From assembly GCA_001805445.1 (NCBI GenBank), contig MHGF01000009.1:1-53496 (forward strand): a DNA stretch of 53,496 bases. Reading direction: 5' to 3'. A program made the translations under genes and the position numbers. This document shows positions 1 through 39,730 of the stretch, piece by piece. This DNA is from Omnitrophica WOR_2 bacterium GWF2_43_52 (GTDB lineage Bacteria; Omnitrophota; Gorgyraeia; Gygaellales; UBA12090). Position 1 is the first letter of the stretch. The number at the start of each line of letters is the position of its first letter. The notes under the pieces were generated by a model. It did no database searches and was not told the origin of the DNA. It saw only the letters and a list, made by a program, of their open reading frames with translations.

Positions 1-1997
1 AGAAGGTCAAGGTCAGGACTATTTTCAGTTTAGTCAGCCAATATATAAATGATAATTTTAATGTAGAGAGCGTTTCCAAGATAACCTGGGCCCCGCAAGA
101 GGCAGTGCTAAGCCTGGCCCATCAAATAGCCGAGAACAGGGGCAAGACCTTGATTGCCGTCGGGATGGGGCCGAATCACTTTTTTAATAATGACTTAAAA
201 GACCGGGCGATATTCCTGCTTTGCTCTTTAACCCGCAATATCGGTACTCACGGCGGTAATATCGGCAGTTATGCCGGTAATTACCGGGTAGCCTTTTTTG
301 ACGGCGTTGGCCAGTATATATCCGAGAATCCTTTTAATATTGAGGCCGACGAAACCAAGCCCTCTAATGTCCGGCAGTATTTTAAATATGAATCCGCGCA
401 TTATTATAACCATGGAGATACCCCGCTTCGGATAGGCAACAAACTTTTTACCGGTAAGTCTCATATGCCTACGCCTACTAAATCCCTGATGTTTGCCAAT
501 GCCAATTCTATTCTAGGCAACCTTAAGGGCCATTATGATATGGTGGTTAATGTCATTCCCAAGATAGAAATGATTACGGTAAATGACTGGTGGTGGACCG
601 CTTCTTGCGAATACGGGGATATTGTTTTTGGGGTGGATTCCTGGGCTGAACTGAAATATCCGGATGCCACTGCCTCGGTAACTAATGATTTCCTTCAGAT
701 GTTTCCCCGCACCCCTTTAAAGCGCCTGCATGATACTCGTGGAGATATTGAGGTGTTTGCCGGAGTAGGCGCGGCTCTGGGTAAAAATCTTAATGATAGC
801 AGATTCGTTGATTACTGGAAATTTGTCCATGAGAATAAGGTAGAGGCTTATTTGCAGAGGATTATGAATGCCAGCGCGATGACCAAAGGCTACAATGTTT
901 TGGAACTGGAGGAGAACGCTAAAAACGGGATCCCCGCTTTGTTGATGAGCCGCACCCATCCCAAGATTATGGGCTGGGAGCAGACCCAGGAAAACAAGAA
1001 GTGGTATACCAAGACCGGCCGCTTGGAATTTTACCGGGAAGAAGATGAGTTTATTGAATACGGTGAAAACCTCCCGGTATATCGCGAGCCGGTGGATGCG
1101 ACTATCTATGAGCCGAATGTGATTGTGGCCAAACCTCACCCGGCATTAAAGCCAGCGCAATTAGAGAAATACGGGTTATCCAGCGATAATCAATCGACTG
1201 ATGTGCGTCAGGTGCGTAACGTGGTAAAGACTCCGGAAGAACTCATTGCCTCTGAGCACCCCTTACGCAAAGACGGTTTTAGCCATGTGTATATTACCCC
1301 TAAATATCGCCACGGGGTGCATACTACCCCTGTAGATTTAGATGTGATTGCGATGTGGTTTGGCCCCTTTGGAGATCCCTATCGCAAGGACAAGCGCAAG
1401 CCTTGGGTGGGTGAAGGCTATGTGGATATTAATCCCGAAGATGCCAAGAGCCTAGGTATAGAAGATGGAGACTATATCTGGGTGGATGCCGATCCCGAAG
1501 ATAGGCCTTATCGCGGTGAAAAGATTCCCGGTTCTGAGAATTATCGATTGGCCCGCCTGATGCTGAGGGCCAGATATTATCTGGGTATTCCCCGCAGTGT
1601 CAGCCGTTCCTGGTTTCACATGTATGGTTCAACTTATGGTTCGGTGGAAGGGCATTTGAATAATCCCGATGGCCTTGCCCGCAATCCCCGCACCGGATAT
1701 CAAGCGATGTACAGGTTTGGTTCGCACCAGAGCTGTACCCGCGGCTGGCTGAAGCCTACGTTGATGACTGAAAGTTTAGTTAGAAAAGATACTATCGGCC
1801 GGGTCATCGGCAAAGGCTTTGCCCCGGATGTACACTGTCCTACTGGCGCACCCAAAGAAAGCTTTGTCAAATTCACCAAGGCAGAAGACGGCGGATATAA
1901 TGGGGATAAGAAATGGCGGCCGGCAAAGTTAGGATTAAGGCCAACTTATGAAACCGATGCGATGAAGAATTTTCTCAAAGGAGCGTTTATACAATGA
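1..1997 (+). CDS. nxrA: NXR/Nar-type molybdopterin oxidoreductase alpha subunit (5' partial)
   Basis: C-terminal roughly 665 residues of a large type II DMSO-reductase-family catalytic subunit. The reading frame is open back to the first bases (codons start at position 3), so the GTG at 105 is internal and the Tat leader and N-terminal Fe-S site lie outside the window. Family members interconvert nitrite and nitrate at a bis-MGD molybdenum centre. Visible family hallmarks are the [15 protein letters not shown] stretch, the [18 protein letters not shown] stretch and a C-terminal molydopterin-binding domain near [14 protein letters not shown]. Residue pattern resembles NXR of Nitrospira and anammox bacteria more than classic NarG, as I recall those families. 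The stop overlaps the beta-subunit ATG by 4 bases (ATGA). Whether it oxidises nitrite or reduces nitrate cannot be decided from sequence alone; related enzymes (perchlorate, selenate, ethylbenzene) are less likely alternatives. Confidence 0.85.
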
Positions 1998-3142
1998 GTC
2001 AGATGAGCCATAAAGTATATAACTGGCAGTTAAAAAGGGAGATGGCCTATAAATATCCTGAGGCCCGCCCCCAAAAACAGGTGGCTTGGATTTTTGATAC
2101 CAATAAGTGTATTGCCTGCCAGACCTGTACTATGGCCTGCAAGATGACCTGGACTTCAGGCAAGGGCCAGGAATATATGTGGTGGAATAATGTGGAAACC
2201 AAACCGTGGGGATTCTATCCTATGGGATGGGATGTGCGTTTGCTTGAGAGCCTGGGGCCGCAGTCATGGGACGGGGATAAATATATAGGTAAAACAATCT
2301 TTGAGCAAGACATCGCCGGGGAAGAGATCATGGGCTATAGCCCCGAAGAGGATGATTGGCTGAATCCCAACTTAGGCGAGGATGAAGTATCCCAGCCGGT
2401 AAAACAGGGGGAGTATATTAAAATCCCGCATCAGCCTTGGATGTTTTATCTTCAGAGAATATGCAATCATTGTACCTATCCCGGTTGTCTTGGTGCCTGC
2501 CCCAGAAAATCAATCTATAAGAGAGACGATGGTATTGTCCTGATTGACCAAGACAGATGCCGTGGTTATCAGGAGTGCGTGCGCGGCTGTCCATACAAGA
2601 AATCAATGTTTAGAGGTTTTACCGGAAAGTCCGAGAAGTGCATTTCCTGCTATCCTGCTGCGGAGCAGGGTAAGCAGACTCAATGCACGGTAAATTGTAT
2701 AGGGAAAATACGCCTTTTCGGCTATAAGGGCCCTTGGGATAAACCCAAGGAGGATAATCCTATAGATTATTTGGTCCATTTTAAGAAAATTGCTCTGCCT
2801 TTATTTCCCCAGTTTGGCACAGAACCCAATGTGTATTACATTCCTCCGATAAATGTGCCGGAGGCTTTTAACCGCCAGTTATTCGGGCCCGGGGCTAAGG
2901 CGGCAGTGGAGATGTATAGGAAGGCATATGAAGATACCCGGCTTATCGGCATCTTAATGCTGATGGGGGCGACTGAGGAGATACCTTTTACTTTTAAGGT
3001 TGAAGGGGATATCAATACCGGCCACTGCTATGGTTATAATGAAAAGGGGGAGCAGGTGGCTAAAGTTCCTCTTAAAGAGCCGATTGTTATCCGCCAGGAA
3101 TATGATAAAGAAAGAGATGTCCATCGGCTCAGTGTCAGTTAA
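1994..3142 (+). CDS. nxrB: NXR/Nar-type iron-sulfur beta subunit
   Basis: Electron-transfer subunit that would carry electrons between the molybdenum subunit and the haem subunit. 382 residues with four Fe-S cluster motifs: C39, C42, C45, C49; C157, C160, C165, C169; C189, C195, C199 with Tyr192 where a fourth Cys would stand; and C216, C219, C231, C235. The aromatic substitution in CRGYQEC matches NarH/NXR-B, where it gives a [3Fe-4S] cluster. No export signal of its own is seen, as expected for a subunit exported piggy-back with a Tat-bearing alpha subunit. Start ATG overlaps the alpha stop, so translation is coupled. About 40 residues shorter than Nitrospira NxrB by my recollection. Confidence 0.88.
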
Positions 3143-3153
3143 ATACTATATAA

Positions 3154-3171
3154 GGTCAGCTTACGCTGACC
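3154..3171. other. Small hairpin between beta-subunit and chaperone genes
   Basis: A perfect 7-bp stem (GGTCAGC/GCTGACC) with a TTAC loop occupies the 41-base gap between the beta-subunit stop and the chaperone start. There is no T-tract, so it is not an intrinsic terminator. It could stabilise the message or be one of the small palindromic repeats scattered through this window; TCAGCCGTAGGCTGA at 48882 has a related arm. Confidence 0.5.
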
Positions 3172-3183
3172 ACTACTTAAAAT

Positions 3184-3711
3184 ATGGTGGCGGAATTAGA
3201 GTTAAATAAAGAAAGATTAAGTAAGTATAAGAGTTTGGCGGTCGCCTTTTCTTATCCCCAAGGCGGCTTTTTTGATTTCTTTCCGGAGTTATCCGGTGAA
3301 AGAGAGGGTTTGGTTCGGGAATATGACCGGTTATTCCGAGTCAAGGAAATCTGGCTCTATGGCACCGAATACATCAGCCAACATGAGTTTCAGCGCAGTA
3401 ACTATTTAGCGGACATCTCCGGTTTTTACAAGGCCTTTGGGGTTGAGATAAAAAGCGACCGGCCGGATTCGCTTGAGGCGGTATTAGAGTTTATGCACTA
3501 TCTTATATACAAGGAAATAAATGCCCCCTCAGCCGAGAAAGCGGAAATCTGCCTGGATGCTCAGAAAAAGTTTCTCAATGAGTATGTCAGCCCGATGGCC
3601 AGGGCAATAGCCCAGAAGGTGATTGATCAAACCCAGAGTTCATTTTATAAAACTATTTCCTTGGAGATGCAAGAGTTTTTGGCTGAAGAGGAGAAAATTC
3701 TGAAAAAATGA
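3184..3711 (+). CDS. TorD/NarJ-like molybdoenzyme assembly chaperone
   Basis: A 175-residue, acidic, helical protein, the usual size for TorD/DmsD/NarJ-type chaperones that insert the molybdenum cofactor and proofread Tat export of the alpha subunit. Weak family cues are the EYDRLF stretch near residue 40 and helices rich in Phe, Leu and Glu. The call relies largely on position, between the beta and haem subunit genes of the NXR-like operon, where such a chaperone is common. The ATG at 3184 has no strong ribosome binding site; the GTG at 3187 is an alternative. The stop overlaps the next gene's ATG (ATGA). Confidence 0.7.
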   Translation: MVAELELNKERLSKYKSLAVAFSYPQGGFFDFFPELSGEREGLVREYDRLFRVKEIWLYGTEYISQHEFQRSNYLADISGFYKAFGVEIKSDRPDSLEAVLEFMHYLIYKEINAPSAEKAEICLDAQKKFLNEYVSPMARAIAQKVIDQTQSSFYKTISLEMQEFLAEEEKILKK

Positions 3712-4550
3712 AGAAGACGGTTTATTTTATTACCTTTGTTTTGCTGGCGGCTTTTCTTGGCTTGGTTTATTACGGAGCCAGGCATTGGCGAGGGATGCCT
3801 GTTCAGATTGAGAGGTTTGAAACACCGGCCTTGAATGTGGCTTTTATGGATAAAGACATTGATTTAGCCCAAGGTTTGGCTCCGGAGGTTTGGCAGGAGA
3901 TTAAGCTTCAGGAGATTAAGCTTATGTATCAGGTTACTGCCCTACCCTGGCCTAAGATAAAGGGCATGCTTTCTGCGGTAACCGTAAAGGCCTTTCACAG
4001 CAAAGAAAACATCTATTTTTATATGAGCTGGCCGGATGACACAGAAGACAGGATTCATGAAACCACCCAATTTTCGGATGCCTGCGCGATAATGTTTCCG
4101 GTAGAAAAGGATGTCCAGCCGCATACCATTATGATGGGTTTTTTGGGGCGGGTAAATATCTGGCAGTGGAAAGGCAATCAGGACCGGGAGTATTGGCAAA
4201 AGGAATCTCCTCAAACCAAGGCCTATGTGGATTATTATTATCCCTTTGAAGACAAAGAATTGTTCCCTGTATCCCAGCATGTAACCAAGTTCGCGGTGAA
4301 TGACCTGCTGGCTATACGGGTAGGCACCATCACTCCGAAGGATGTTCAGGAGGTAATGGGTAAAGGGGTATGGGAGAACGGGGTTTGGACAGCGGTATTT
4401 AAGCGCCCTCTTAAGTCGCTGGAGGGAGAAAATGGGGTTAACTTTATCTCCGGCAAAAGATTATCCGCATTGGCAGTCTGGAACGGCTCCAAAGGCGATC
4501 GCGGAGGAAGAAAATCAATATCGGATTGGCTGGAATTAAATATACAATGA
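3708..4550 (+). CDS. nxrC: Haem-b binding gamma subunit, ethylbenzene-dehydrogenase type
   Basis: 280 residues with an N-terminal membrane anchor or signal (about residues 5-24) followed by a periplasmic domain matching the EbdC/NxrC/DdhC haem-binding family: an early KAFHSKENIYFYMSW strand pattern, a Met-rich MGFLGRVNIWQW segment and the closing GRKSISDWLEL. Family members bind one b haem with Met and Lys ligands and pass electrons between the beta subunit and a periplasmic carrier. The operon order alpha, beta, chaperone, gamma supports the role. Its stop overlaps the ATG of the CuA-NapH gene (ATGA), so the downstream copper proteins are translationally coupled to the complex. Confidence 0.8.
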   Translation: MKKTVYFITFVLLAAFLGLVYYGARHWRGMPVQIERFETPALNVAFMDKDIDLAQGLAPEVWQEIKLQEIKLMYQVTALPWPKIKGMLSAVTVKAFHSKENIYFYMSWPDDTEDRIHETTQFSDACAIMFPVEKDVQPHTIMMGFLGRVNIWQWKGNQDREYWQKESPQTKAYVDYYYPFEDKELFPVSQHVTKFAVNDLLAIRVGTITPKDVQEVMGKGVWENGVWTAVFKRPLKSLEGENGVNFISGKRLSALAVWNGSKGDRGGRKSISDWLELNIQ

Positions 4551-6451
4551 GCGTTTACCGTTTACCGTTTACCGTTTACCGAAAGATAGTAGTAGGTTTT
4601 CTTTTTCTATCTTCTATTTTCTTTTTTCTATCTTCTCCTTCTTTTGCCGCGGAGAGATTTTTTGAGGTTAAGGCTAAGAAATTTTCCTATACCCCGAACA
4701 TAATCAAGGTGAATAAAGGGGATAAGGTAAGCATCCGCCTCATCAGCGAGGATGTGCATCATGGTTTTTTTGTTGATGGCTACGGGGTAAAAACTTCCGC
4801 CCATCCCGGAATGGAAGGCGCTTTGAGCTTTACCGCGGATAAGTCCGGGAGATTCTCCTTCCGTTGTTCGGTTACCTGCGGCTCTTTGCATCCCTATATG
4901 ATCGGCTATCTTTATGTCTCTCCTAATAATCTGTGGGTATGGGGTGTTTTTGGGGTCCTTGCCTTAGGGCTAATTTCCTGGCTAATCACTTCCAAGAAAA
5001 AGCAGAAGGATGAAAAGCTCAAGCTTTTTGGGATTATACCGTTAGAATGGAGATTCCCACTGACTAAGTTTAAGCCGCTGCGCGCTCTTCTTAAGAGCCG
5101 CTGGTTTCCTTTCTTGCCTATAGTTTTTAACCTGTTTATATTTACCATTATTCTTCTGGCCGGTTTTATCGGAGGGCTGGGGGCCGGGAATTATAACTTC
5201 GGGGTAATGATTGTCTGGATCCTTTGGTGGGTATTGCTGATGATGTTTATGGTGCCCTTAATCGGCAGGTTCTGGTGTATGATGTGCCCATTCCCATTAA
5301 TAGGGGATTGGATACAGCGGGGGAAGCTTATCAATGTAGGCAAGCAGAAATCCTGGGGCTTGGGTAAAAGATGGCCGAATAAACTGCGCAACCTCTGGCC
5401 TTTGGTTATCCTATTCTGGGTATCTACATGGTTCTCCGGATTTTTTACGGTTAAGCCTTTTGCCACCTTTATCCTCTTGGGGGCAATTATCCTTATAGCC
5501 ATTATTATTGCTTTATTCTTTGAGAAGCGCACTTTCTGCCTGTTTGTCTGCCCGGTGAGCGGTTTTCAGGGATTATATGCCAATTTTTCCCTTTTTGGGG
5601 TGCGTTCCCGTGATCCGGAAATCTGCAAGAAGCATGTCCCCAAGACCTGCGTGGTGGGAAATGAAAAAGGCTACGGCTGTCCCTGGATGGAATTGCCTTA
5701 TGAGATGAACCGTAACACCTATTGCGGGCTGTGTTTTGAATGCCTTAAGACCTGTCCTTATGACAATATGGATTTGGTCTTAAAGCCATTTGGCCAGGAT
5801 TTATTTGCCGAAAGGCGGCGCACTGACGATGTATATAACCGCAGAAGCACTGACGAGGCCTATAAGGCCTTGACTATGATTGGCATATTTTTGTCCTTTT
5901 TTCTGGCTTTCCAAGGTCCTTACGGCCACTTGAGGGATATGGTAACTGCCAAGACCTTTGGCCTGCATGGGTATCTGGGATATCTTTTAGAGTCTTTCAC
6001 GATTGACTTTCTGCTTATTCCTGGTTCCTTATTTTTGTTTGCCTGGCTCTCTAAACTTGCCAGCAGAAGTAAGGAGGTTAAGCTTAAGGATGTTTTTGTC
6101 AATTTCTCTTACTGTTTAGTCCCGGTAGGCATAGCGATCTGGGGGGCTTTTAGCTTGGGAATAATCTTTCCTAATGGAAGCTATCTCCTGCATATTATCT
6201 CTGACCCCTTTTCCTGGGGCTGGAATCTTTTCGGCACAGCCAGCATACCCTGGACCCCATTCTTCACCGGTTTAATGCCTTACTTGCAGGTATTGGTTAC
6301 CTTAGGCGGAATGCTTTTTGCCCTGGACTTTGGTTATAAATTCTCCCAGCGAACCTATAAGGATATAGGTGAAGCCAAGCGCGGCTGGATACCGATACTC
6401 ATTTATCTGATCCTTATTCACATTTTCTTTGTGAGGATATTTGTGGGTTAG
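4547..6451 (+). CDS. CuA-type cupredoxin fused to NapH/CcoG-like polyferredoxin membrane protein
   Basis: 634 residues. Signal-like segment at about 13-35, then a cupredoxin domain (37-125) with a CuA-type site: His71/His72 region and C107, C111, H115, M118 in C-x3-C-x3-H-x2-M order, as in cytochrome oxidase subunit II and nitrous oxide reductase. A membrane helix follows (128-148), then a polytopic NapH-like part with membrane Cys motifs (FWCMMCP, FCLFVCP) and a CGLCFECLKTCP ferredoxin motif, then further helices. The architecture suggests an electron path between periplasmic copper and membrane or quinone Fe-S centres; this is inference. I chose ATG 4547 rather than TTG 4526 because it forms an ATGA overlap with the upstream stop. 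Residues 3-12 are encoded by a 7-base tandem repeat. Confidence 0.75.
   Translation: MSVYRLPFTVYRKIVVGFLFLSSIFFFLSSPSFAAERFFEVKAKKFSYTPNIIKVNKGDKVSIRLISEDVHHGFFVDGYGVKTSAHPGMEGALSFTADKSGRFSFRCSVTCGSLHPYMIGYLYVSPNNLWVWGVFGVLALGLISWLITSKKKQKDEKLKLFGIIPLEWRFPLTKFKPLRALLKSRWFPFLPIVFNLFIFTIILLAGFIGGLGAGNYNFGVMIVWILWWVLLMMFMVPLIGRFWCMMCPFPLIGDWIQRGKLINVGKQKSWGLGKRWPNKLRNLWPLVILFWVSTWFSGFFTVKPFATFILLGAIILIAIIIALFFEKRTFCLFVCPVSGFQGLYANFSLFGVRSRDPEICKKHVPKTCVVGNEKGYGCPWMELPYEMNRNTYCGLCFECLKTCPYDNMDLVLKPFGQDLFAERRRTDDVYNRRSTDEAYKALTMIGIFLSFFLAFQGPYGHLRDMVTAKTFGLHGYLGYLLESFTIDFLLIPGSLFLFAWLSKLASRSKEVKLKDVFVNFSYCLVPVGIAIWGAFSLGIIFPNGSYLLHIISDPFSWGWNLFGTASIPWTPFFTGLMPYLQVLVTLGGMLFALDFGYKFSQRTYKDIGEAKRGWIPILIYLILIHIFFVRIFVG
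4552..4581. repeat. Heptanucleotide tandem repeat (CGTTTAC)4 at a gene start
   Basis: Four exact copies of CGTTTAC plus two bases, starting five bases after the chosen ATG of the CuA-NapH gene. It encodes the residues after the initiator (VYRLPFTVYR). Because 7 is not a multiple of 3, loss or gain of one unit would shift the frame. Confidence 0.9.
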
Positions 6452-6453
6452 TT

Positions 6454-6846
6454 ATGAAGAAAAACGAATTATTCGCGGTAGTATTGATGTTTTTGGCAAC
6501 TATTGGCACGGTAATCGGCATATTCGCTTATGAGAAAAGCCGCGCCAAGGGCTATTATACTGTAGAGTTGACTGCCCGCGCCCCGCTTAACGGCAACTGG
6601 TATCCCCGTAAGTTTACGGTTCCTTTTGGCCAAGAGGTGCGGATTCGTATCCGCAATATTGAGACGGTCAGCCATGGTTTTGCCATGCCAGATTTTAATA
6701 TTGAACCGGCCATCAACGAGATCAAGGCCGGAGAAGTCAAAGAGATTAAATTCCTTGCCGATAAAAAAGGCACCTTCCCGTTTTTCTGCACCGTCTGGTG
6801 TTCCAATGAGCACCTGCACATGAGCGGTGAGATTACAGTCGAATAA
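6454..6846 (+). CDS. Membrane-anchored CuA-type cupredoxin
   Basis: 130 residues: an N-terminal membrane anchor (about 6-25) and one cupredoxin domain with His74 and a C112, C116, H120, M123 motif (CTVWCSNEHLHM), the spacing of the binuclear CuA site. Known CuA domains accept or donate electrons at about the potential of cytochrome c. It begins two bases after the preceding gene and follows a second CuA-bearing protein, so the operon has two copper electron carriers. It could be the partner that docks with the haem gamma subunit, or a subunit-II-like partner of an oxidase elsewhere; no oxidase subunit I is adjacent. Confidence 0.8.
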   Translation: MKKNELFAVVLMFLATIGTVIGIFAYEKSRAKGYYTVELTARAPLNGNWYPRKFTVPFGQEVRIRIRNIETVSHGFAMPDFNIEPAINEIKAGEVKEIKFLADKKGTFPFFCTVWCSNEHLHMSGEITVE

Positions 6847-6871: not shown

Positions 6872-7759
6872 ATGAAAAAAGGGATTGTTTTTATTACAGG
6901 TATTATAGCTTTTATGATGTTTTTTGCTTCCCAGGGCTTTTGCGCGCCGACGCCTGAGCAGTGGGGTATTATTATGAATATTTCCGGCAGGCAAAGAATG
7001 CTTTCTCAGAAGATGTCAAAGGAGGCACTTTTGGCAATAGCGGGAATAAACCCTGATGAAAATCTTAAAAAACTCGCGGAGTCGATGAAGCTTTTTGAAA
7101 CCAGCCACCATGCCCTTACGGAGGGTGATGCCGCTATGAATATTCCTGCCTGCGAGTTCCCCGATATCAGCGAGCAGCTTGAGAAAGTGAGTATTCTGTA
7201 TGCTGAATTAGACAAGATTTTTGATAAGATGGTTGAGGGGGAAAAAGCTGATAGTAATGACATGCAGCATATTGCCAAAGCCAGCCTTCCCCTTTTGACC
7301 GCCGCGGATAAGGCCGTCAAGTTGTTTGAGGCCGAGGCAATCAAGGTATTAACCAAGGACCCGACACTGGCTCTGGTGATTAACATTGCCGGCAGGCAAA
7401 GAATGCTTTCTCAGAAGATGGCCAAGGAAGCGCTTCTTATACATCTTAAAGTAGATGCTACGACGCAAGCAGAATCCCTTCAAAAGACGACTACCCTTTT
7501 TGAAACCAGCCTAAAAGGGCTTCAGTTTGGCGATTCTGAGGTTGGTATTCCTCCTACTAAGGAAGAGGATATCAAGGCGCAGTTGGAGACGGTGGGCGCG
7601 TCATGGACGAAAGTTAAGCCTATCTTAGAGAAAATAATGACCCAGTATCTTAATTATGCTATTAGTAAGGACGATGTTGTTTCGGTGGTAGACTTAACGG
7701 GCATTATATTGAAGGAATCAGATAAGGCAGTAGGGATGTATGAGAAAGTAGCAAAATAA
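6872..7759 (+). CDS. Secreted protein with two PilJ/NarX-like sensor domains
   Basis: 295 residues with a signal peptide (cleavage likely near GFCA, residue 25) and no later membrane helix, so it is probably periplasmic. Two repeats each start with GRQRMLSQKM (residues 39-48 and 174-183), the hallmark of the PilJ-type N-terminal domain found in type IV pilus chemotaxis receptors and related to the nitrate/nitrite-binding P-box of NarX/NarQ. Here the domains stand alone, without a kinase or methyl-accepting part. Good ribosome binding site (AAAGGGGG). Being last in the NXR-like operon suggests a ligand-binding or buffering role for nitrate or nitrite, but that is inference. Confidence 0.75.
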   Translation: MKKGIVFITGIIAFMMFFASQGFCAPTPEQWGIIMNISGRQRMLSQKMSKEALLAIAGINPDENLKKLAESMKLFETSHHALTEGDAAMNIPACEFPDISEQLEKVSILYAELDKIFDKMVEGEKADSNDMQHIAKASLPLLTAADKAVKLFEAEAIKVLTKDPTLALVINIAGRQRMLSQKMAKEALLIHLKVDATTQAESLQKTTTLFETSLKGLQFGDSEVGIPPTKEEDIKAQLETVGASWTKVKPILEKIMTQYLNYAISKDDVVSVVDLTGIILKESDKAVGMYEKVAK

Positions 7760-7918: not shown

Positions 7919-8374
7919 ATGAAATTAGACGACATTGATAAGAAGCTCATTATGTGCCTGCAGGAAGATTTTCCGCTTGTTCTTCGGCCTTTTCAGGAAC
8001 TTGGGAAAAGAATTTCTCTAGGTGAAGAAGAGGTTATGAGAAGAATCCTCAGCCTCAAAGCTGCCGGTATTATCAAGCGTATAGGGCCGGTGCATGATTC
8101 GCAGAATTTAGGATTCAAGCGTACATTAGTAGGAATGTTGGTAGCGGATGAGCACTTAGAGAAAACTGTTTGTGTTATAAACAGTTTTAGCGAGGTAACC
8201 CATAATTATTTACGCCGCGATGATGCCTTTAACCTTTGGTTTACCCTGATTTGTTCGACAAAAAAACGGATTACGGCTATCCTTAAAGAAATAAAACAGA
8301 AAAGCGGCGTTACCACAATAATTAGCTTGCCGACGGTCAAGACTATAAAGATAAGAACGGTATTTAAAGTATAA
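7919..8374 (+). CDS. Siroheme decarboxylase subunit (AhbA/NirD family), AsnC-like fold
   Basis: 151 residues: a winged-helix N-terminus (LDDIDKKLIMCLQEDFPLV), the IKRIGPVHDSQNLGFK core and an AsnC-type ligand domain, typical of AhbA/AhbB and NirDGLH proteins. These decarboxylate siroheme to didecarboxysiroheme on the way to haem b (alternative pathway) or haem d1. The RIGPVHDS pattern is the A-type half; the B-type partner is probably the gene at 11372. They are separated here by three flavin-related genes. A transcription-factor role (Lrp/AsnC) is the alternative, but the IKRIGPVHDS pattern favours the enzyme. No cd1 nitrite reductase is in view, so haem b synthesis is the simpler reading. 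Confidence 0.75.
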   Translation: MKLDDIDKKLIMCLQEDFPLVLRPFQELGKRISLGEEEVMRRILSLKAAGIIKRIGPVHDSQNLGFKRTLVGMLVADEHLEKTVCVINSFSEVTHNYLRRDDAFNLWFTLICSTKKRITAILKEIKQKSGVTTIISLPTVKTIKIRTVFKV

Positions 8375-16073: not shown

Positions 16074-16943
16074 GTGGAAATGAAAGAGAAAAAGATGAAA
16101 CGAAGTGATTTTCTGAAGTTAGCGGCTACTGCTACGGTAACCGGGGCTTTTTTAAAGTCAGGAAAAACATCCGCGAAAGAAGAAATAGGGGCGCAGGCAA
16201 TAGAAGCGGATTTATCCAAATTGCCCAGAGAGATTGTGTATAAAAACGAGCTTTTGCGGATGCAGGAAGATTTACTGCGGGCATTAAAAAAACCACTTAA
16301 GGAAAGAAAGTGGTCAATGGTCCTGGATTTACGCAGGTGTATTGGCTGCTCCGCCTGCACTATTGCTTGTAAGGCGGAAAATGTTCTGCCGCCGGGTGTA
16401 GTATATCGGCCGGTGGTGGATGAAGAAATAGGCACCTATCCTAAAGTCACCAGACGCTTTATTCCCCGGCCTTGTATGCAATGTGAGAATCCTCCCTGTA
16501 CACCGGTCTGCCCGGTAAAGGCAACCCATAAACGCGAAGACGGTATTGTGGTGGTTGATTATGAACGCTGTATCGGTTGCCGCTATTGCATTACTGCCTG
16601 CCCTTACAATGCCCGCAGCGCTGATTTTGGCGAGGTGTATACCGAAGGAACCCCAATAGTGCAGGATTATGAATTAAGGCCAAATTTTGAATACAAAAAG
16701 GAATGGCCGCGTAAGCACGGCGTATCACCAATAGGTAACGCGCGCAAATGCCATTTTTGTATCCATCGTATTGAGGAAGGATTATTGCCGGCCTGTGTAA
16801 CGACCTGTATAGGCGGGGCAACCTATTTTGGCGATAATAATGATACGGATAGTTTGGTTTCCGACTTGATTGCCAGGCCAAATATCACCACCCTAAAAAG
16901 CGAATTAGGCACCAAGCCAAAAGTCTATTACATATGGGGGTAA
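16074..16943 (+). CDS. Ttr/Psr-type four-cluster ferredoxin subunit
   Basis: 289 residues with a Tat-like leader (KRSDFLK then a hydrophobic stretch) and four Cys groups: [38 protein letters not shown] and [20 protein letters not shown]. This is the DmsB/PsrB/TtrB family, which carries electrons between a periplasmic molybdoenzyme and an NrfD-type membrane protein. It starts a three-gene cluster with both partners directly downstream (3-base gap, then overlap). GTG 16074 has GAGGTG seven bases upstream; ATG 16080 and ATG 16095 are other options. Confidence 0.85.
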
Positions 16944-16946
16944 AAA

Positions 16947-18059
16947 ATGAGATTGCTCTATAAAATATTCTGGGGAATATGTTTTGCTGTGGGGGCTATA
17001 GCAGTAGGAGAGCGTTTAGTCGTAGGTAAGAAGCTGCTTAATTTGGGTAGTTATGTAACTTGGGGGTTGTGGGTTTCTCTTTATATTTATTTAGTGGGAT
17101 TATCCAGCGGTGCGTATATATTCACTTCTTTGGCTTCAGTTTTTAAATTAGAGCGCTTCGCTAAGTTGCGAAAAATATCCTTGTTAGCCAGTTTGGTAAC
17201 CTTAGTAGCGGCGCTCGTGGCTATTATTCTGGATTTGGGGCATTGGGAGAGATTCTGGCATGTGTTTATTCATCCTACTCCATCTTCAATGATGAGTTGG
17301 ATGGTCTGGCTCTATAGCCTTTACTTTCTTCTGCTTACAATGCAGGTGTTTTTTGTCTTTTCCGCTAAGGCGGAAAAAGCGCAATTTTTGTTTTTGATAG
17401 GGTTTCCTTTAGCCATCGCTATTCCTGTCTGCGGGGGATCACTCTTTGGGGTAATTGGCGCCATGCCCTATTGGCATTCGGCAATATTTCCAGTTCTGTT
17501 TTTCTTTGAGGCGCTGCTTTCGGGAATAGCATTGATTACGTTATTGAGCATACTTTTAGGCCTTGCCAGAGATGATAAGGAAGGGATATTTGTTATTCTC
17601 CCCAAGATACTTTTAGGGTTATTAGTGGCAAATATTGTCTTAGAGACAGGGGTTATGGCAGTGCCGCTTTGGGGGCAGATCGCCTATCATATTGACGCGG
17701 TGAAGTTGGTTCTGTTTGGTGAATTTTGGTGGGTGTTTTGGATTGCGCATATTGGCTTGGGTTGCCTTATTCCTTTACTTTTATTGTTGAGTAAAACCAA
17801 TATCATAAAGGTAGCAGTTGCTTCAGGATTAATTGCTATTACCTTTATGAGCGTGCGGCTTAATATTGTTATCCCGGCATTGACAATCCCTGAATTAAAA
17901 GGTTTGGAGAATGCTTTTATTGAAAAACGCCTTATGTTTTCTTATGTGCCAAGCCTTCATGAGTGGCAGGTTAGTTTGTTTATTGTGGCATTAGCTATTG
18001 GTCTATTTTATGCAGGGATGAAATTCCTCCCTACATTATTAGAAAGGAGGAAAGCCTGA
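16947..18059 (+). CDS. NrfD/PsrC/TtrC-type membrane quinone-interacting subunit
   Basis: 370 residues, nine or so hydrophobic helices. NrfD family features include the WGLWVSLYIYLVGLSSGAYI segment in the first third and RFWHVFIHPTPSSMMSWMVW near residue 100. Such subunits exchange electrons with the quinone pool and anchor the Fe-S and catalytic subunits. Its TGA overlaps the ATG of the catalytic gene, so translation is coupled. Confidence 0.85.
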   Translation: MRLLYKIFWGICFAVGAIAVGERLVVGKKLLNLGSYVTWGLWVSLYIYLVGLSSGAYIFTSLASVFKLERFAKLRKISLLASLVTLVAALVAIILDLGHWERFWHVFIHPTPSSMMSWMVWLYSLYFLLLTMQVFFVFSAKAEKAQFLFLIGFPLAIAIPVCGGSLFGVIGAMPYWHSAIFPVLFFFEALLSGIALITLLSILLGLARDDKEGIFVILPKILLGLLVANIVLETGVMAVPLWGQIAYHIDAVKLVLFGEFWWVFWIAHIGLGCLIPLLLLLSKTNIIKVAVASGLIAITFMSVRLNIVIPALTIPELKGLENAFIEKRLMFSYVPSLHEWQVSLFIVALAIGLFYAGMKFLPTLLERRKA

Positions 18060-21000
18060 TGGAAAAGACAAGGGCCTTTTTAGAAAAGCCTTTATCCCGG
18101 AAGAAGTTCTTACAGCTTTCAGGCGCTACCGGAGCATTGTTAGGCGCGGGGCTTATGGAAAGCCGCGATGTTTTAGCTGATAATAAGAAAGAGGTATCTT
18201 ACGATTTGAATAAGGCTAAGAATATCATTAATAGCGTCTGCCTGCAATGTAATACCGGTTGTTCCATTAAAGTAAAGCTTCTTGACGGCATATGTGTTAA
18301 GATTGACGGCAATCCTTACAGCCCCTGGACAATGTGGCCGCATATACCGTATAAAACTTCTATTAACGAGTCTGCGGCAATTGACGGGCATATTTGTCCA
18401 AAAGGCCAATCCGGAATTCAGACGCTTTATGACCCTTACCGTATCCGCAAGGTGCTTAAGCGCGCGGGGAAGCGCGGTGAAAATAAATGGGTAAGCATGC
18501 CTTTTGAGGAGGCGGTAAAGGAAATTGTAAACGGAGGCAAGCTTTTTAGCAATGTGGCGGGTGAGGAGAATAGGGTTATTGAGGGGCTGAAAGATATCTG
18601 GGTATTAAGGGACCCTAAGGTTTTTAAGGAAATGTCCGCGGATATCAAGGAAATCTGGCACGCCAAAGAAAAGGATGAGAAGCAGAAAAAGATTCAGGAG
18701 TTTAGGGAGAAATATAAAGAGCATTTAGATAAACTCATTGACCCGGAGCATCCGGATTTTGGGCCAAAGAATAATCAATTGCTTTGGATACACGGCAGGC
18801 TTAAAGGCGGCCGTTCGGAGTTCTTTAAGCGTTTTATCCAGGATTCTTTTGGCTCAACTAATTTTCACGGCCATACTACTGTGTGCCAGGGCTCACTTTA
18901 TTTTACCGGTAAAGCGATGTCTGACCAGTTTGATTTTGATGAAAAAGACAAGAAGGCCAAGTGGGGCGCGGGCAAGAAGTTTTATTGGCAGGGTGATTTG
19001 TCGGGTGCAGAGTTTGTGATTTTTGTGGGCGCGTCTCCTTTTGAGGCAAATTACGGGCCTCCCTACCGCAGTAATAAGCTTACCGAAGGGATGGTTTCCG
19101 GAAGGCTCAAATACGCGGTGGTTGACCCCCGGCTGTCTAAGACAGCGGCCAAGGCCTGGAAGTGGCTGCCTATAAAACCGGGGGCGGAAGGCGCTCTTGC
19201 CTTAGCCATGATAAGCTGGGTTATTGAAAATAAAAGATATGACGCTACCTATCTTGCCAATGCCAATAAGGCCGCGGCAAAATCAGATAAAGAACCAACC
19301 TGGAGTAACGGCTGTTGGCTGGTAAAGATGTCCGCCGCAGGCGGATCCGCCTCCGGCGGAAAAGACAGTAAGCCAGGAGAATTCCTGAGGGCTTCTGACT
19401 TAGGGATTGAGAAAACTAAAAAGACCAAAACCTTAAAAGACGGTACAGAAGTAGAATATGAGTTTGATAATTTTGTTTGTTACTCAAACGGCCAAGCCGT
19501 TACTTTTTACCCTAATGATTCTGAAACCTCCGCGGAGGGGGATTTGTTTGTGGATACCGAGGTAAACGGCATAAAGGTAAAGTCTGCCTTAACGCTTATT
19601 AGAGAAGAGGCGCAAAGATATAGCCTTGAAGGGTGGGCTAAGCTTTGCGGCTTAGACGTAGAGGATATTATTGCTGTATCCCAAGAATTTACCTCACACG
19701 GTAAGCGCGCCTGCGCGGATATCCATCGCGGGGTTTCACAGCATACCAACGGATTCTATAACGTCTTAGCCTGGTATACGCTTAACTTACTCATCGGTAA
19801 TTACGATTGGCAGGGAGGCATGTCGCAGGCATCTACCTATGACAATGCCGGAGAGAAAGAAGGCAAGCCCTACGATATGGGCAAGATGCATCCCAAAAAG
19901 ATTTCACCTTTTGGCATCAGCCTTATTCGTCATGGTGTAAAGTATGAAGAAACAACCATCTTCGCCGGATATCCGGCGAAACGGCCGTGGTTTCCTATGG
20001 CATCAGATGTCTATCAGGAGATTCTTCCTTCTGTTCAGGATGCCTATCCTTATGCTATAAAAGCCCTCATTTTATATATGGGAACTCCCGCCTATTCATT
20101 ACCCGCGGGGCAGACTCAGCTCAATGTTTTAGCGGACATCAATAAACTTCCTTTGTTTATTGCTTCTGACATAACTATTGGCGAGTCTTCAATGTACGCT
20201 GACTACATTATTCCCGATTTGTCTTATTTAGAGCGTTGGGAATTCCAGGGGTCGCATCCGTCGGTGATCTGGAAAGTTCAGCCGGTGCGCCAGCCCGCGG
20301 TGAGCCCTATCCCTGAAGAAGTTGAGGCTTTTGGCGAGAGGATGCCGATTTCGCTGGAGGCATTTTTTCTGAAGGCCGCGGAATTGATTGAATTGCCGGG
20401 TTTTGGCAAGGGCGGGTTTAAGGGTGGATTGGATTTACGGCGGCCGGAAGATTATTATTTAAAGATGGCGGCTAATGTGGCTTTTGGAGATGAAAAAGAC
20501 GGCTCTAAAGCGGTGGCTGATGCTGATGAGGCGGAGATTGGGGCGTTTATCGATAGCCGCCGAAACTTATCCAAGAGTGTGTTTGACCTGGAGAAATGGA
20601 AGCAGGCAGTGAGCCCGGAGTTATGGAGAAAGGTAGTATATGTATTAAACCGCGGAGGTAGATTTGATGATTTTGAAAAGGCCTTTGACGGGAAGCAGTT
20701 GAAGAATAAATACGGAAAACAGGCAAATATGTATCTTGAAAAATTAGTTAAGATTAAGAATTCAATTACCGGTAAAGGCTTTCCTTCTTTGCCGGTTTAT
20801 CTGCCGATAGCGGATGCGCAAGGAAACAGCCTTAACGATGAAAAAGAGGGTTTTGATTTAAACCTGATAACCTACCGCGAAATCGCGCAGTGTAAGAGCC
20901 GCACCATTTCAAACTATTGGCTTTTGGGCCTCTTGCCTGAGAATTTCATTCTATTGAATTCACAGGATGCCGCGCGTTTAGGCTTAAAGAACGGCGATAA

Positions 21001-21328
21001 AGTAAAAGTTACTTCTAAGACTAATCCAGAAGGGATATGGGATTTGAAGGAGGCAGGAACTACCCCTATGGAAGGCCGGGTTAAGGTTATTGAAGGAATC
21101 CGTCCCGGAGTAACCGCCTTTTCCTTAGGCCATGGCCATTGGGCATACGGCTCACGGGATGTTTTGGTTGACGGGCAGAGGATTGCCGGGGATAAGCGCC
21201 GCGGCAAAGGTATTCATGCCAATGCCGCGATGAGGATAGACCCGTACTTAAAAAATACCTGTTTAGAAGATTTAGTCGGGGCATCAGTTGCTTTTTATGA
21301 TACGTATGTGAAGTTGGTGAAGGTATAG
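18059..21328 (+). CDS. Molybdopterin oxidoreductase catalytic subunit, tetrathionate/polysulfide reductase-like
   Basis: 1089 residues. Tat-like leader (SRKKFLQLSGATGALLGAG), a [4Fe-4S] site at C61, C64, C68, C113 (CLQCNTGC, then CPKG) and full molybdopterin domains; the Cys in GHTTVCQGS near residue 280 is the likely molybdenum ligand. Length, the SVCLQCNTGC-type motif and the B-C-A neighbours suggest the TtrA/PsrA/ArrA side of the family. Substrate is not clear: tetrathionate, polysulfide, thiosulfate or arsenate are candidates. Residues 425-434 come from two tandem 15-bp palindromes (19331-19360) inserted in frame. Confidence 0.82.
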   Translation: MEKTRAFLEKPLSRKKFLQLSGATGALLGAGLMESRDVLADNKKEVSYDLNKAKNIINSVCLQCNTGCSIKVKLLDGICVKIDGNPYSPWTMWPHIPYKTSINESAAIDGHICPKGQSGIQTLYDPYRIRKVLKRAGKRGENKWVSMPFEEAVKEIVNGGKLFSNVAGEENRVIEGLKDIWVLRDPKVFKEMSADIKEIWHAKEKDEKQKKIQEFREKYKEHLDKLIDPEHPDFGPKNNQLLWIHGRLKGGRSEFFKRFIQDSFGSTNFHGHTTVCQGSLYFTGKAMSDQFDFDEKDKKAKWGAGKKFYWQGDLSGAEFVIFVGASPFEANYGPPYRSNKLTEGMVSGRLKYAVVDPRLSKTAAKAWKWLPIKPGAEGALALAMISWVIENKRYDATYLANANKAAAKSDKEPTWSNGCWLVKMSAAGGSASGGKDSKPGEFLRASDLGIEKTKKTKTLKDGTEVEYEFDNFVCYSNGQAVTFYPNDSETSAEGDLFVDTEVNGIKVKSALTLIREEAQRYSLEGWAKLCGLDVEDIIAVSQEFTSHGKRACADIHRGVSQHTNGFYNVLAWYTLNLLIGNYDWQGGMSQASTYDNAGEKEGKPYDMGKMHPKKISPFGISLIRHGVKYEETTIFAGYPAKRPWFPMASDVYQEILPSVQDAYPYAIKALILYMGTPAYSLPAGQTQLNVLADINKLPLFIASDITIGESSMYADYIIPDLSYLERWEFQGSHPSVIWKVQPVRQPAVSPIPEEVEAFGERMPISLEAFFLKAAELIELPGFGKGGFKGGLDLRRPEDYYLKMAANVAFGDEKDGSKAVADADEAEIGAFIDSRRNLSKSVFDLEKWKQAVSPELWRKVVYVLNRGGRFDDFEKAFDGKQLKNKYGKQANMYLEKLVKIKNSITGKGFPSLPVYLPIADAQGNSLNDEKEGFDLNLITYREIAQCKSRTISNYWLLGLLPENFILLNSQDAARLGLKNGDKVKVTSKTNPEGIWDLKEAGTTPMEGRVKVIEGIRPGVTAFSLGHGHWAYGSRDVLVDGQRIAGDKRRGKGIHANAAMRIDPYLKNTCLEDLVGASVAFYDTYVKLVKV
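19331..19360. repeat. Two tandem 15-bp palindromes inside the Ttr-like gene
   Basis: TCCGCCGCAGGCGGA is followed at once by TCCGCCTCCGGCGGA. The 30 bases encode SAAGGSASGG in frame. The same palindrome type occurs at 11249, 44218 and 48897. Confidence 0.9.
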
Positions 21329-23233: not shown

Positions 23234-24616
23234 ATGCAGAATCAGAATGATATAGTTAATGAAGGTACTATCCTTAGGATATTAGAGGAAACTAAAAAGC
23301 CGAAAGCTGAAAGCGTTTTTTCTGTCCTTAAGAAGGCCGAAGAAAAGAAAGGGCTTGCGCTTCGCGACGCAGGGATTTTACTTCATGCGCAAGGCGCCGA
23401 ATTAAAAGAGGCGCTTTATCGGGCCGCGGGTAACATTAAGGATGAAATCTACGGCGAGCGGATTGTATTCTTCGCGCCTCTGTATGTTTCTGACTTTTGC
23501 GTCAATAATTGCCTGTATTGTAATTTTCATACTGAAAATAAAGGCTTGCACCGAAGGAAATTGGCCTTAGAGGAAGTGGAAAGGCAAACCGAGCTCCTTA
23601 TTGATATGGGGCATAAGCGGCTCCTTTTAGAGTTTGGAGAAGACCCTCTTCATAATGATATTGAGTATGTGGTAAAAGTTATTGAGCGGATATACTCAGT
23701 AAAGCAGGCTAAAGGCAATATCCGCAGGCTCAACGTGAATATTGCCGCGACTACGGTTAAGAATTACCGAAAGCTGAAGCAGGCGCAGATTGGGACCTAT
23801 CAGCTTTTTCAGGAAACCTATCATCGTAAGACGTATGAAGCGCTTCATCCATGCGGCCCAAAAGCGGATTACCAGCGGCAATTGACTGCTCATTTGCGTG
23901 CGTTTGAAGCGGGTATTGATGATCTGGGGATTGGAGTCTTATTTGGTTTATATGACTGGAAATTTGAAGTCTTGGCGCTTCTGCAGCACGCGCAGTATTT
24001 GGATAATGTCCTAGGGGTTGGCCCGCATACCATTTCGGTTCCGCGGTTTTGCCCTGCGCCTTCAGTGAGCTATAAACCTGAATATGCGGTAAGTGATGAT
24101 GATTTTTTAAAGCTTATTGCTATCTTGCGGCTGGCAGTACCGTATACAGGGATGATTATTTCTACTCGGGAAACTCCCGAAATAAGAAAAGAGGCCTTTA
24201 AAATCGGGATATCCCAGGCATCGGCTGCTTCAGTGGCTTCACCCGGAGGATACGGTAGTAGTGCTAAAGATGAAGCGCAGTTTGAGCTTCACGACCAACG
24301 GCCGCTTGCCGAGGTAATCAAAGGCGTTGTAGAAGATAAAATGCTGCCCAGCTTCTGCACTGCCTGTTATCGCAGGGGCAGGACAGGAGAGGCCTTTATG
24401 GAGCTTTCTAAACCGGGTGAAATCCATACTTTCTGCCGCTCTAACGGCTTATTGACCTTTGCCGAATATTTGGAAGATTTTGGAAACGGCCTTTATAAAA
24501 AAGGATATGAGACAATAGAACTATATTTAAACCAAATCGAAGACGAAGGCTTGCGCCGTAAAACTCAAGAACGCCTCGAAAAGATTAAGCAAGGAGCCAG
24601 AGATTTATATTTCTAA
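23234..24616 (+). CDS. hydG: [FeFe]-hydrogenase maturation radical SAM enzyme HydG
   Basis: 460 residues. Radical SAM site C89-x3-C93-x2-C96 (CVNNCLYC), a ThiH-like barrel (LLEFGEDPLHND), and a C-terminal auxiliary-cluster domain with FCTACYRRGRTGEAFM and a later FCRSNGLLTFAEYL, both typical of HydG. The enzyme splits tyrosine to give CO and cyanide for the H-cluster. It starts two bases after the preceding stop, probably one transcript. No hydrogenase large subunit and no HydF are encoded in the window, so its target is elsewhere. Confidence 0.9.
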   Translation: MQNQNDIVNEGTILRILEETKKPKAESVFSVLKKAEEKKGLALRDAGILLHAQGAELKEALYRAAGNIKDEIYGERIVFFAPLYVSDFCVNNCLYCNFHTENKGLHRRKLALEEVERQTELLIDMGHKRLLLEFGEDPLHNDIEYVVKVIERIYSVKQAKGNIRRLNVNIAATTVKNYRKLKQAQIGTYQLFQETYHRKTYEALHPCGPKADYQRQLTAHLRAFEAGIDDLGIGVLFGLYDWKFEVLALLQHAQYLDNVLGVGPHTISVPRFCPAPSVSYKPEYAVSDDDFLKLIAILRLAVPYTGMIISTRETPEIRKEAFKIGISQASAASVASPGGYGSSAKDEAQFELHDQRPLAEVIKGVVEDKMLPSFCTACYRRGRTGEAFMELSKPGEIHTFCRSNGLLTFAEYLEDFGNGLYKKGYETIELYLNQIEDEGLRRKTQERLEKIKQGARDLYF

Positions 24617-24645
24617 TCCTTCTAACTTCTAACTTCTTTAATTTA
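24611..24645. repeat. Heptanucleotide tandem repeat (CTTCTAA type)
   Basis: Five 7-base units (TTCTAAT, CCTTCTA, ACTTCTA, ACTTCTT, TAATTTA). The repeat contains the stop codon of hydG and fills most of the gap before the next gene. Confidence 0.75.
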
Positions 24646-24654
24646 TACACTGAT

Positions 24655-25836
24655 ATGTGTTACGCTATCCCCGGAAAAGTTGTTGCTATAGACGATAAGG
24701 TCGTTACCGTTGAATACTTTGACGAAAAGAAAAAAGCGCGCAATGACTTTTACGCTGATTTAGCTGTCGGTGAATATATCTACGCCCAGGGCGGGTTTGT
24801 GGTGCAAAGGATTGCAGAAGAGGAAGCCGCGAATATTTTAAAAACCTGGCAAGAGTTGTTTACAAAGCTTAAAGAGGTGGATTTACGCCTTACCCGCGAG
24901 CCGAAAGGCCTTTATCAGGTTGCCAATGCCACCCGCCAAAGGTCGTTAGGTAATTCCTGCTGTATTCATGGGATTATCGAGTTTTCTAATTATTGCCGTT
25001 CTAATTGCCTCTACTGCGGGATACGCAAAGATAATGTGAACCTAAAACGTTATAGGATGGATGTTGATGAAATAGTAGAAGCCTGTGAATACGCGGTAAA
25101 AGAATTGAAGTTTAAGGCGCTTGTCTTACAGTCCGGAGAAGACCTTTGGTATAGCCAAGAGAAGCTGGTGGACATCGTTGAGAAAGTTATGCGGAAGTGC
25201 CCTGTGCTGCTTATTGTAAGCATAGGCGAAAGGGATAGTGAGCTCTACAAAAAGTTATATGCTTCGGGCGCGCGAGGGGCATTAGTGCGCTTTGAAACCA
25301 GTAATCCGAAGCTCTATCAAAAATACAGGCCTGGCCATACGTTGGATGAGAGGCTTACCTTGATAAAGGAGTTGCGGGAAATCGGTTATTTGGTATTTAC
25401 CGGTTTTCTACTTGGCCTTCCCGGGCAAAGCGAAAAAGATATACTTAAGGATATAGAATTAACCCAATCATTAAAGCCGGAAATGTTTACTTTTGGGCCG
25501 CTTATACCTCATCCGGATACGCCGTTAAAAGATGTTCCTGTGCCGCCACTTGAGGCAGTGCTCAATACTATTGCCCGGGCAAGAATTTTACATCCGGATA
25601 GCCGCATATTGGTTACCACTGCCCTGGAAACGCTGGATAAAGAGGAAGGCGCTCAGAGAGGGTTTCTTTCCGGAGCGAATTCCTTAATGGTAAACCTTAC
25701 CCCTAAGAAATACCAGAGCCTCTACCAAATCTACCCCGAACGCGCAGGGACAGAGTTAGATACCAAACAAAAAATAGAAAAAGTCCTGCAATTGCTTACC
25801 ACCATAGGCCGTGCCCCCACCGATTTGGGAATGTGA
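24655..25836 (+). CDS. hydE: HypC-HydE fusion: HypC-like domain joined to radical SAM HydE
   Basis: 393 residues. Residues 1 to about 70 match the HypC/HupF hydrogenase chaperone (start MCYAIPGKVV with Cys2; RIAEEEAANILKTW helix). The usual HypC His in the VHxGFA motif is Gln45 here (AQGGFVV). Residues about 95-380 are HydE: GIIEFSNYCRSNCLYCGIR with C114, C118, C121, then LQSGED, FETSNPKLY and GFLLGLPGQS. HydE makes part of the dithiomethylamine/iron precursor of the [FeFe] H-cluster. Joining a [NiFe]-type chaperone domain to it is unusual. It pairs with hydG directly upstream. Confidence 0.85.
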   Translation: MCYAIPGKVVAIDDKVVTVEYFDEKKKARNDFYADLAVGEYIYAQGGFVVQRIAEEEAANILKTWQELFTKLKEVDLRLTREPKGLYQVANATRQRSLGNSCCIHGIIEFSNYCRSNCLYCGIRKDNVNLKRYRMDVDEIVEACEYAVKELKFKALVLQSGEDLWYSQEKLVDIVEKVMRKCPVLLIVSIGERDSELYKKLYASGARGALVRFETSNPKLYQKYRPGHTLDERLTLIKELREIGYLVFTGFLLGLPGQSEKDILKDIELTQSLKPEMFTFGPLIPHPDTPLKDVPVPPLEAVLNTIARARILHPDSRILVTTALETLDKEEGAQRGFLSGANSLMVNLTPKKYQSLYQIYPERAGTELDTKQKIEKVLQLLTTIGRAPTDLGM

Positions 25837-39530: not shown

Positions 39531-39536
39531 TATAAT
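39531..39536 (+). promoter_or_regulatory. Candidate extended -10 promoter for the moaA leader
   Basis: TGATATAAT gives a perfect TATAAT with an upstream TG. The -35 region is weak. A start near 39542 would place the transcript's first bases at the closing stem of the predicted leader RNA. Confidence 0.45.
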
Positions 39537-39540
39537 AAAA

Positions 39541-39730
39541 ATACTCCGAGCCTGTAAGCCTACGTCAGAAGTTGACATGGTTTAGTGGCCGATTCCCTTG
39601 AATGGGAAACTGTTCTCAAAGAGAACCGAAGGGTAGAGGAAGAAATGACTCTGCCTCCCTTGTTTTGGAAAGGAGTAAGCTTGAGTCGTAAGCCAACTTT
39701 CCAAATATGCGGGAAGTTGGCTTTTTTAAT
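39541..39730 (+). ncRNA. Riboswitch-like attenuator upstream of moaA (candidate Moco RNA)
   Basis: About 190 bases of folded leader. TACTCC (39542) pairs with GGAGTA (39672) to close a multi-branched region holding hairpins TTCCC/GGGAA, GTTCTC/GAGAAC and AAGGG-GAG/CTC-CCCTT. It is followed by an intrinsic terminator at 39690-39730 (AAGCCAACTT/AAGTTGGCTT then six T). The layout, aptamer-like domain then terminator then moaA, and the gene's role suggest the molybdenum-cofactor riboswitch class, but I could not align it to the known consensus. Confidence 0.6.
39690..39730 (+). terminator. Intrinsic terminator in the moaA leader
   Basis: AAGCCAACTT pairs perfectly with AAGTTGGCTT around 14 bases and is followed by a T-tract. 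It lies 45 bases before the moaA start, which implies premature termination as a control point. Confidence 0.85.

Follow-up and report, generated by a model that had tools for sequence, protein, structure and literature searches.

The described system closest to the locus analysed here is that of Candidatus Methanoperedens, for which Arshad et al. 2015 (PMC4683180, Table 1) listed NarG, NarH, NarJ, Orf7, HCO II, NapH and HCO II genes, in that order. Nitrate-respiring Methanoperedens expresses this operon of seven genes, the NapH of which has five extra helices. The authors called the complex unusual, allowed that it might be bound to the membrane, and proposed that cytochrome c, supplied by a Rieske/cytb complex, is its donor (PMC4683180). 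The gene set is repeated in PMC5690323 and PMC13079737, where the complex is termed a non-canonical nitrate reductase. A second relative is the periplasmic nitrite oxidoreductase (NXR) of the anammox/Nitrospina type, solved for Kuenenia (PDB 7b04), in which the electron path stops at the haem of NxrC, where electrons must pass to a further partner (PMC8387239). Kuenenia, Nitrospira and Nitrospina have been reported to carry cupredoxin-like genes in their NXR clusters (PMC3578206).

The window, that is, the whole 53,496-nucleotide stretch analysed from Omnitrophica WOR_2 bacterium GWF2_43_52 (contig MHGF01000009.1), begins with a single plus-strand operon at positions 1–6846, encoding NxrA, NxrB, a chaperone, NxrC, a CuA–NapH fusion and a second CuA protein (Table 1). 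ATGA overlaps join A to B (1994–1997), the chaperone to C (3708–3711) and C to CuA–NapH (4547–4550), and the remaining joints are gaps of 41 bp between NxrB and the chaperone and 2 bp between the two CuA genes. The start of the fusion is most likely ATG 4547 rather than TTG 4526. The alpha gene runs off the start of the contig, and its N-terminal part is found on contig C19 (G000:C19), whose end matches the first 91 bases of the window exactly and which, by sequence match, covers residues 2–516 of a full-length NxrA relative. The initial annotation was correct as to the NXR-like alpha, beta and gamma subunits, the chaperone, the two true CuA domains and the NapH-like membrane protein, and as to their order and close spacing. 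Its suggestion that the arrangement had not been described does not hold, since the seven functions and their order are shared with Methanoperedens (MPEBLZ_02035-02041 / ANME2D_03460-03466), where they have been on record since 2015. The window operon is, in view of that gene set, a variant of the Methanoperedens arrangement and not a new kind; the first CuA protein and NapH, which are separate genes in Methanoperedens, are fused in the window. Our literature search found no paper on the operon in bacteria. Directly 3′ of the operon lies a gene for a two-repeat PilJ-domain protein (window 6872–7759), with a homologue in the paralogous NapH cluster of loci L034 and L039. A siroheme decarboxylase AhbA-like gene (window 7919–8374) also adjoins the operon, and is near it in several relatives too.

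Table 1. Features of the operon in the window and of related gene sets at other loci
Feature	Position	Strand	Evidence
NxrA/NarG-like catalytic subunit, C-terminal 664 aa	3..1997	+	phmmer vs Kuenenia NxrA (PDB 7b04), 461 bits
NxrB/NarH-like Fe-S subunit, 382 aa	1994..3142	+	377 bits to Kuenenia NxrB; TIGR03478 DMSO_red_II_bet 247 bits, under cut-off
TorD/NarJ-like chaperone, 175 aa	3184..3711	+	PF02613 58.8 bits, over cut-off; TIGR03482
Haem-b gamma subunit like NxrC/Orf7 (280 aa), with a hydrophobic segment at its N-terminus	3708..4550	+	PF09459 EB_dh 89.5 bits
CuA cupredoxin–NapH fusion, 634 aa	4547..6451	+	Pfam COX2 and Fer4_5 over cut-off; NapH subfamily TIGR02163 weak
Predicted CuA ligands of the fusion: His72, Cys107, Cys111, His115, Met118	4760..4900	+	each invariant in 45/45 relatives
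Predicted NapH Fe-S ligands	5276..5755	+	eleven Cys plus His363 unchanged in 46/46 relatives
Second CuA cupredoxin (130 aa) with one membrane anchor at its N-terminus	6454..6846	+	Cupredoxin_1 45 bits; NosZ CuA region 55 bits
Monohaem CxxCH/porin and CuA-NapH-type genes	L034:3920-9153; L036:1543-7458; L039:11884-17087; L048:12949-15112; L089:6626-11717		

Kuenenia NXR is the best solved relative of NxrA, NxrB and NxrC alike; the likeness extends to a soluble haem-b NxrC and to matching ligand positions. The window NxrA is 83% identical to Omnitrophota NxrA, which at full length scores 921 bits against Kuenenia NxrA as compared with 205 bits for the perchlorate reductase PcrA, 153 for E. coli NarG and 143 for the ethylbenzene dehydrogenase EbdA. 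The alpha subunit does not, therefore, group with a non-nitrogen enzyme, an outcome that the initial annotation had named as one that would tell against it. The Mo-ligating Asp and the equivalents of Asn70 and Asp71, positions taken from the description of NXR-A in PMC8387239, align in the Omnitrophota NxrA L038 and its relatives and fall outside the window fragment. A TRRxFLK motif in a Tat-type N-terminus is likewise present on NxrA of relatives, the N-terminus of the window protein itself being encoded on contig C19. The window NxrC aligns with the Kuenenia NxrC haem ligands Met155 and Lys305. The NarG of the outward-facing haloarchaeal NarGH from a Natronococcus occultus plasmid is 49.7% identical over 96%, but no NapH-CuA set adjoins it.

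In a tree of 64 NxrA rows, the window protein falls within a 34-row clade (SH-aLRT 87, not starred), all members of which, including five from Methanoperedens, come from genomes with the NapH set. The anammox-type and Nitrospinota NXR form a separate clade, at about 40–44% identity between the anammox/Nitrospina type and the window type. The enzyme may thus still be called NXR-like, as first annotated, but it lies beside and not inside the anammox/Nitrospina NXR, in a clade of Methanoperedens type. No match to the CuA and NapH profiles was found in the stretches fetched around anammox-type and Nitrospinota NXR loci, for which the anammox reference was L132 (2384 bits to PDB 7b04). The order of genome G285 was of little use as a source of anammox references, 1 of 9 genomes being positive. 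A sister group of Planctomycetota and Nitrospinota NxrA, 54–60% identical, is without an adjacent NapH set; a Phycisphaerae locus (L075) combines the set with an NxrA on the other side. One MAG named Brocadiaceae (L096), a doubtful name, has as its sole NxrA (L100) a protein of the NapH-linked type, 74% identical to that of Omnitrophota.

The fusion protein comprises a signal/anchor helix, a periplasmic CuA domain, one transmembrane helix, a polytopic NapH-like Fe-S protein and a C-terminal membrane extension. The C-x3-C-x3-H-x2-M pattern first noted for each copper domain is confirmed, reading CSVTCGSLHPYM in the fused protein and CTVWCSNEHLHM in the second CuA protein. In the second CuA protein the first His is present in 43 of 43 relatives, and the C/C/H/M ligands in all 42 that reach them. 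An AlphaFold model of the fusion (pLDDT 82, pTM 0.84) places its CuA domain on that of NosZ at approximately 1.4–1.7 Å over 90 columns, and it matches the CuA domain of Thermus ba3 too. Judged from sequence and model, both CuA sites are complete, with the His, Cys, Cys, His, Met set and a cupredoxin fold, and copper binding is predicted. Although the CuA domains resemble that of NosZ, a place for CuA–NapH in a nos operon is rejected, as no NosZ gene was found near.

The second part of the fusion shares with E. coli NapH a polytopic, ferredoxin-type build, the two Cx(2-3)CP motifs and the CxxCxxCxxxCP cluster. It differs from E. coli NapH in the CuA domain fused at its N-terminus, in approximately 200 extra residues with more helices, and in having an invariant His for one cluster Cys with other spacing. 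Four Cys ligands are at helix ends (C244xxC247P and C331xxxC335P) and eight ligands in a loop (C360, H363, C368, C378P and C393xxCxxCxxxC403P). His363, which has no equivalent in E. coli NapH, probably replaces one cysteine in a 3Cys/1His cluster; this is a prediction for that reason. The definition of NapH within NapGH, with two CxxxCP motifs, two all-Cys ferredoxin clusters and NapG, does not fit the window protein, whose first motif is CxxCP and one of whose clusters is CxxHx4Cx9CP; no NapG gene was found in the operon. The Lys/Arg-rich stretch that follows the post-CuA helix indicates that the Fe-S loop should be cytoplasmic and the CuA domain periplasmic.

CuA and NapH are fused in 10 of the 46 rows scored, requiring at least four changes on the tree. 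The fusion has arisen several times, an observation that is new here, and its repetition points to the first CuA domain and NapH acting together as a physical unit. The two parts of the operon also have different affinities. While the NxrA of the window and L045 groups with that of Omnitrophota L038 and L058, their NapH groups with the fused NapH of Lentisphaerae, Desulfobacterales and Aminicenantes. With groups picked after the trees had been seen, AU tests rejected both NapH forced onto the NxrA grouping (p-AU 3.4e-5) and NxrA forced onto the NapH grouping (p-AU 1.6e-7). We conclude from the two rejections that NapH has probably been exchanged independently of NxrA, which is also new here.

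A scan of 84,980 species gave 53 named loci, assigned to Omnitrophota, Planctomycetota, Acidobacteriota, Chloroflexota, Actinomycetota (Hakubella), Spirochaetota, Aminicenantes, Lentisphaerae, Nitrospinota and others, as well as to Methanoperedens (L077, L078, L071, L073 and L095); some of the MAG names may be unreliable. The gene set spans roughly eight bacterial phyla. Within the phylum of the window, 10 of 285 genomes hold NapH relatives of at least 33% identity, several of them with the full operon. NxrA is in the same stretch at 32 of the 53 loci; 14 others end too soon upstream, and seven have room for NxrA yet are without it. Counting loci with NxrA or at least 6.5 kb upstream, the proportion is 32 of 39, and the linkage is thus not due to chance. 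The strong genetic coupling first inferred from the operon is borne out, and the contrary case of a CuA–NapH gene unlinked to NXR in all relatives did not occur. Three of the seven NxrA-less loci are distant (<40% identity) and four carry NapH relatives of at least 50% identity. Several genomes have their NxrA on a different contig.

The genome is a MAG, 94% complete, and each of the following absences comes from a single-family search that worked in control genomes. Within this 94% complete genome we detected no heme-copper oxidase (COX1), no cytochrome bd oxidase, no NrfA and no Rieske protein. The last point sets it apart from Methanoperedens, with its proposed donor system of a Rieske/cytb complex and cytochromes c. 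NarI (PF02665), the cytochrome b subunit of canonical NarGHI, is also undetected genome-wide, so that the initial annotation was right to see no NarI-type cytochrome. The ORFs listed from 6.4 kb of the window onward include no CxxCH protein. A CuA protein on contig C38 is ruled out as part of an oxidase, as its neighbours are copper-ATPase/efflux-like by sequence and COX1 is absent from the genome. The window encodes a formate dehydrogenase alpha subunit together with HydE and HydG, suggesting an anaerobic life of the host. The two [FeFe]-hydrogenase maturase genes are at window 23234–25836, HydE having a HypC-like N-terminus. A molybdenum/tungsten cofactor riboswitch is at window 39532–39691 (85.6 bits). 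TtrB/NrfC-like, NrfD-like and TtrA-like genes occupy window 16074–21328, and a similar set is also near the nitrate-reductase operon in L035, L046, L053, L054 and L064.

With these usual membrane partners missing, the copper/iron-sulfur part probably connects the enzyme to the membrane. The simplest reading, and one that we consider reasonably probable, makes the complex a respiratory nitrate reductase of the NXR/archaeal-Nar type that faces outward, into the periplasm, with NapH-CuA-CuA as its membrane link. Electrons would enter NapH from menaquinol or a cytoplasmic reductant by way of the Fe-S clusters that face the cytoplasm, and would exit into the periplasm through the CuA domain of the fusion. 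The second CuA protein, anchored in the membrane, would carry them on to the haem b of NxrC, and the clusters of NxrB would relay them to Mo in NxrA for the reduction of nitrate to nitrite. NapH-CuA-CuA would in this way take the role of NarI in NarGHI, or that proposed for the Rieske/cytochrome b complex and cytochrome c in Methanoperedens. The carriers and the direction of flow are as we infer them. The nitrate reductase reading is supported by the expression of the Methanoperedens operon, the Methanoperedens affinity of NxrA, the absences from the genome, the signs of anaerobic life in the window, the conservation of the ligands, the CuA fold match and the repeated fusion, as well as by the Kuenenia structure, in which electrons must leave via the NxrC haem, and by a flavoprotein insertion in the NapH loop at L036 (see below). 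Several points speak against it. The NapH clusters would be cytoplasmic and CuA outside, with no cofactor known to bridge the membrane between them; the TtrBCA/NrfD-like complex nearby could exchange electrons with quinol and is a possible alternative partner; the four close NapH relatives mentioned above have ample upstream sequence and no adjoining NxrA; and absences in a 94% complete MAG are no proof.

A further point against it is that NXR enzymes are reversible. The initial annotation had put nitrite oxidation and nitrate reduction side by side, both through copper and Fe-S centres; we retain these centres as the link and prefer nitrate reduction. Were the complex a nitrite oxidoreductase, external nitrite would be oxidised and electrons driven uphill by the pmf, via CuA and NapH, inward to quinone or NAD(P)+. 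The bidirectionality of NXR (PMC8387239) and the closeness of all three subunits to the Kuenenia structure, down to the Asn-Asp motif from which FS0 there takes its Asp ligand, would accommodate this, but with NxrA in the Methanoperedens nitrate-reductase clade, outside that of anammox and Nitrospina, and no heme-copper or bd oxidase detectable, it appears unlikely. A substrate other than nitrate or nitrite, for example chlorate, selenate or another oxyanion, seems very unlikely, since NXR is by far the closest solved structure and the Methanoperedens members come from nitrate respirers; in its favour, type II DMSO reductases serve diverse functions as a family, and our search turned up no bacterial NapH-linked member that has been characterised.

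NapH proteins are not always required for turnover in Nap systems, and for some NapGH/NosR proteins an accessory role in redox balance or maturation has been proposed. NapH and the two CuA proteins could similarly be accessory, with another soluble carrier feeding NxrC, as soluble cytochrome c does in the Methanoperedens models (PMC4683180). We regard this too as improbable given that the CuA ligand sets are complete in all relatives, that CuA and NapH have fused repeatedly, and that neither a Rieske protein in the genome nor a CxxCH protein among the window ORFs from 6.4 kb was found.

Paralogous gene sets lend support to, but do not prove, a role of NapH-CuA in transmembrane electron transfer. 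At L034, L036, L039 and L089, a second CuA-NapH-Cu set lies next to the gene for a protein that has a single CxxCH at its N-terminal end and is predicted to form a 16-strand porin barrel, modelled with low confidence (pLDDT 57); such a monohaem porin architecture is known from Cyc2 and Cyc572 (PMC10654088). The paralogue of L034, L036 and L039 is ruled out as a nos or heme-copper oxidase component, its neighbours being ResB, CcsA, HemA and the monohaem porin. L036 also encodes a 943-aa NapH paralogue (L036:4148-6979) whose cytoplasmic Fe-S loop is interrupted by a GltD-like NAD(P)H flavoprotein domain. Besides the repeated fusion and the exchange, the features new here are the His-for-Cys ligand, the paralogous NapH-CuA set by a monohaem porin-cytochrome and this flavoprotein insertion, seen once. 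We tentatively suggest that NapH-CuA may be a portable transmembrane module, passing electrons from cytoplasmic Fe-S or NAD(P)H to periplasmic CuA, exchanged independently of its catalytic partner, and serving outward-facing nitrate reductases or Cyc2-like monohaem porin-cytochromes according to context.

As to the route by which electrons pass between NXR-type enzymes and the membrane, the conserved CuA/Fe-S operon, in a genome where neither an oxidase nor a Rieske protein nor NarI was detected, indicates one partner that can be tested. From the operon, Omnitrophota and other phyla without cultured members would be expected to respire nitrate, and matches to ‘nxrA’ in MAG surveys need not signify nitrite oxidation.
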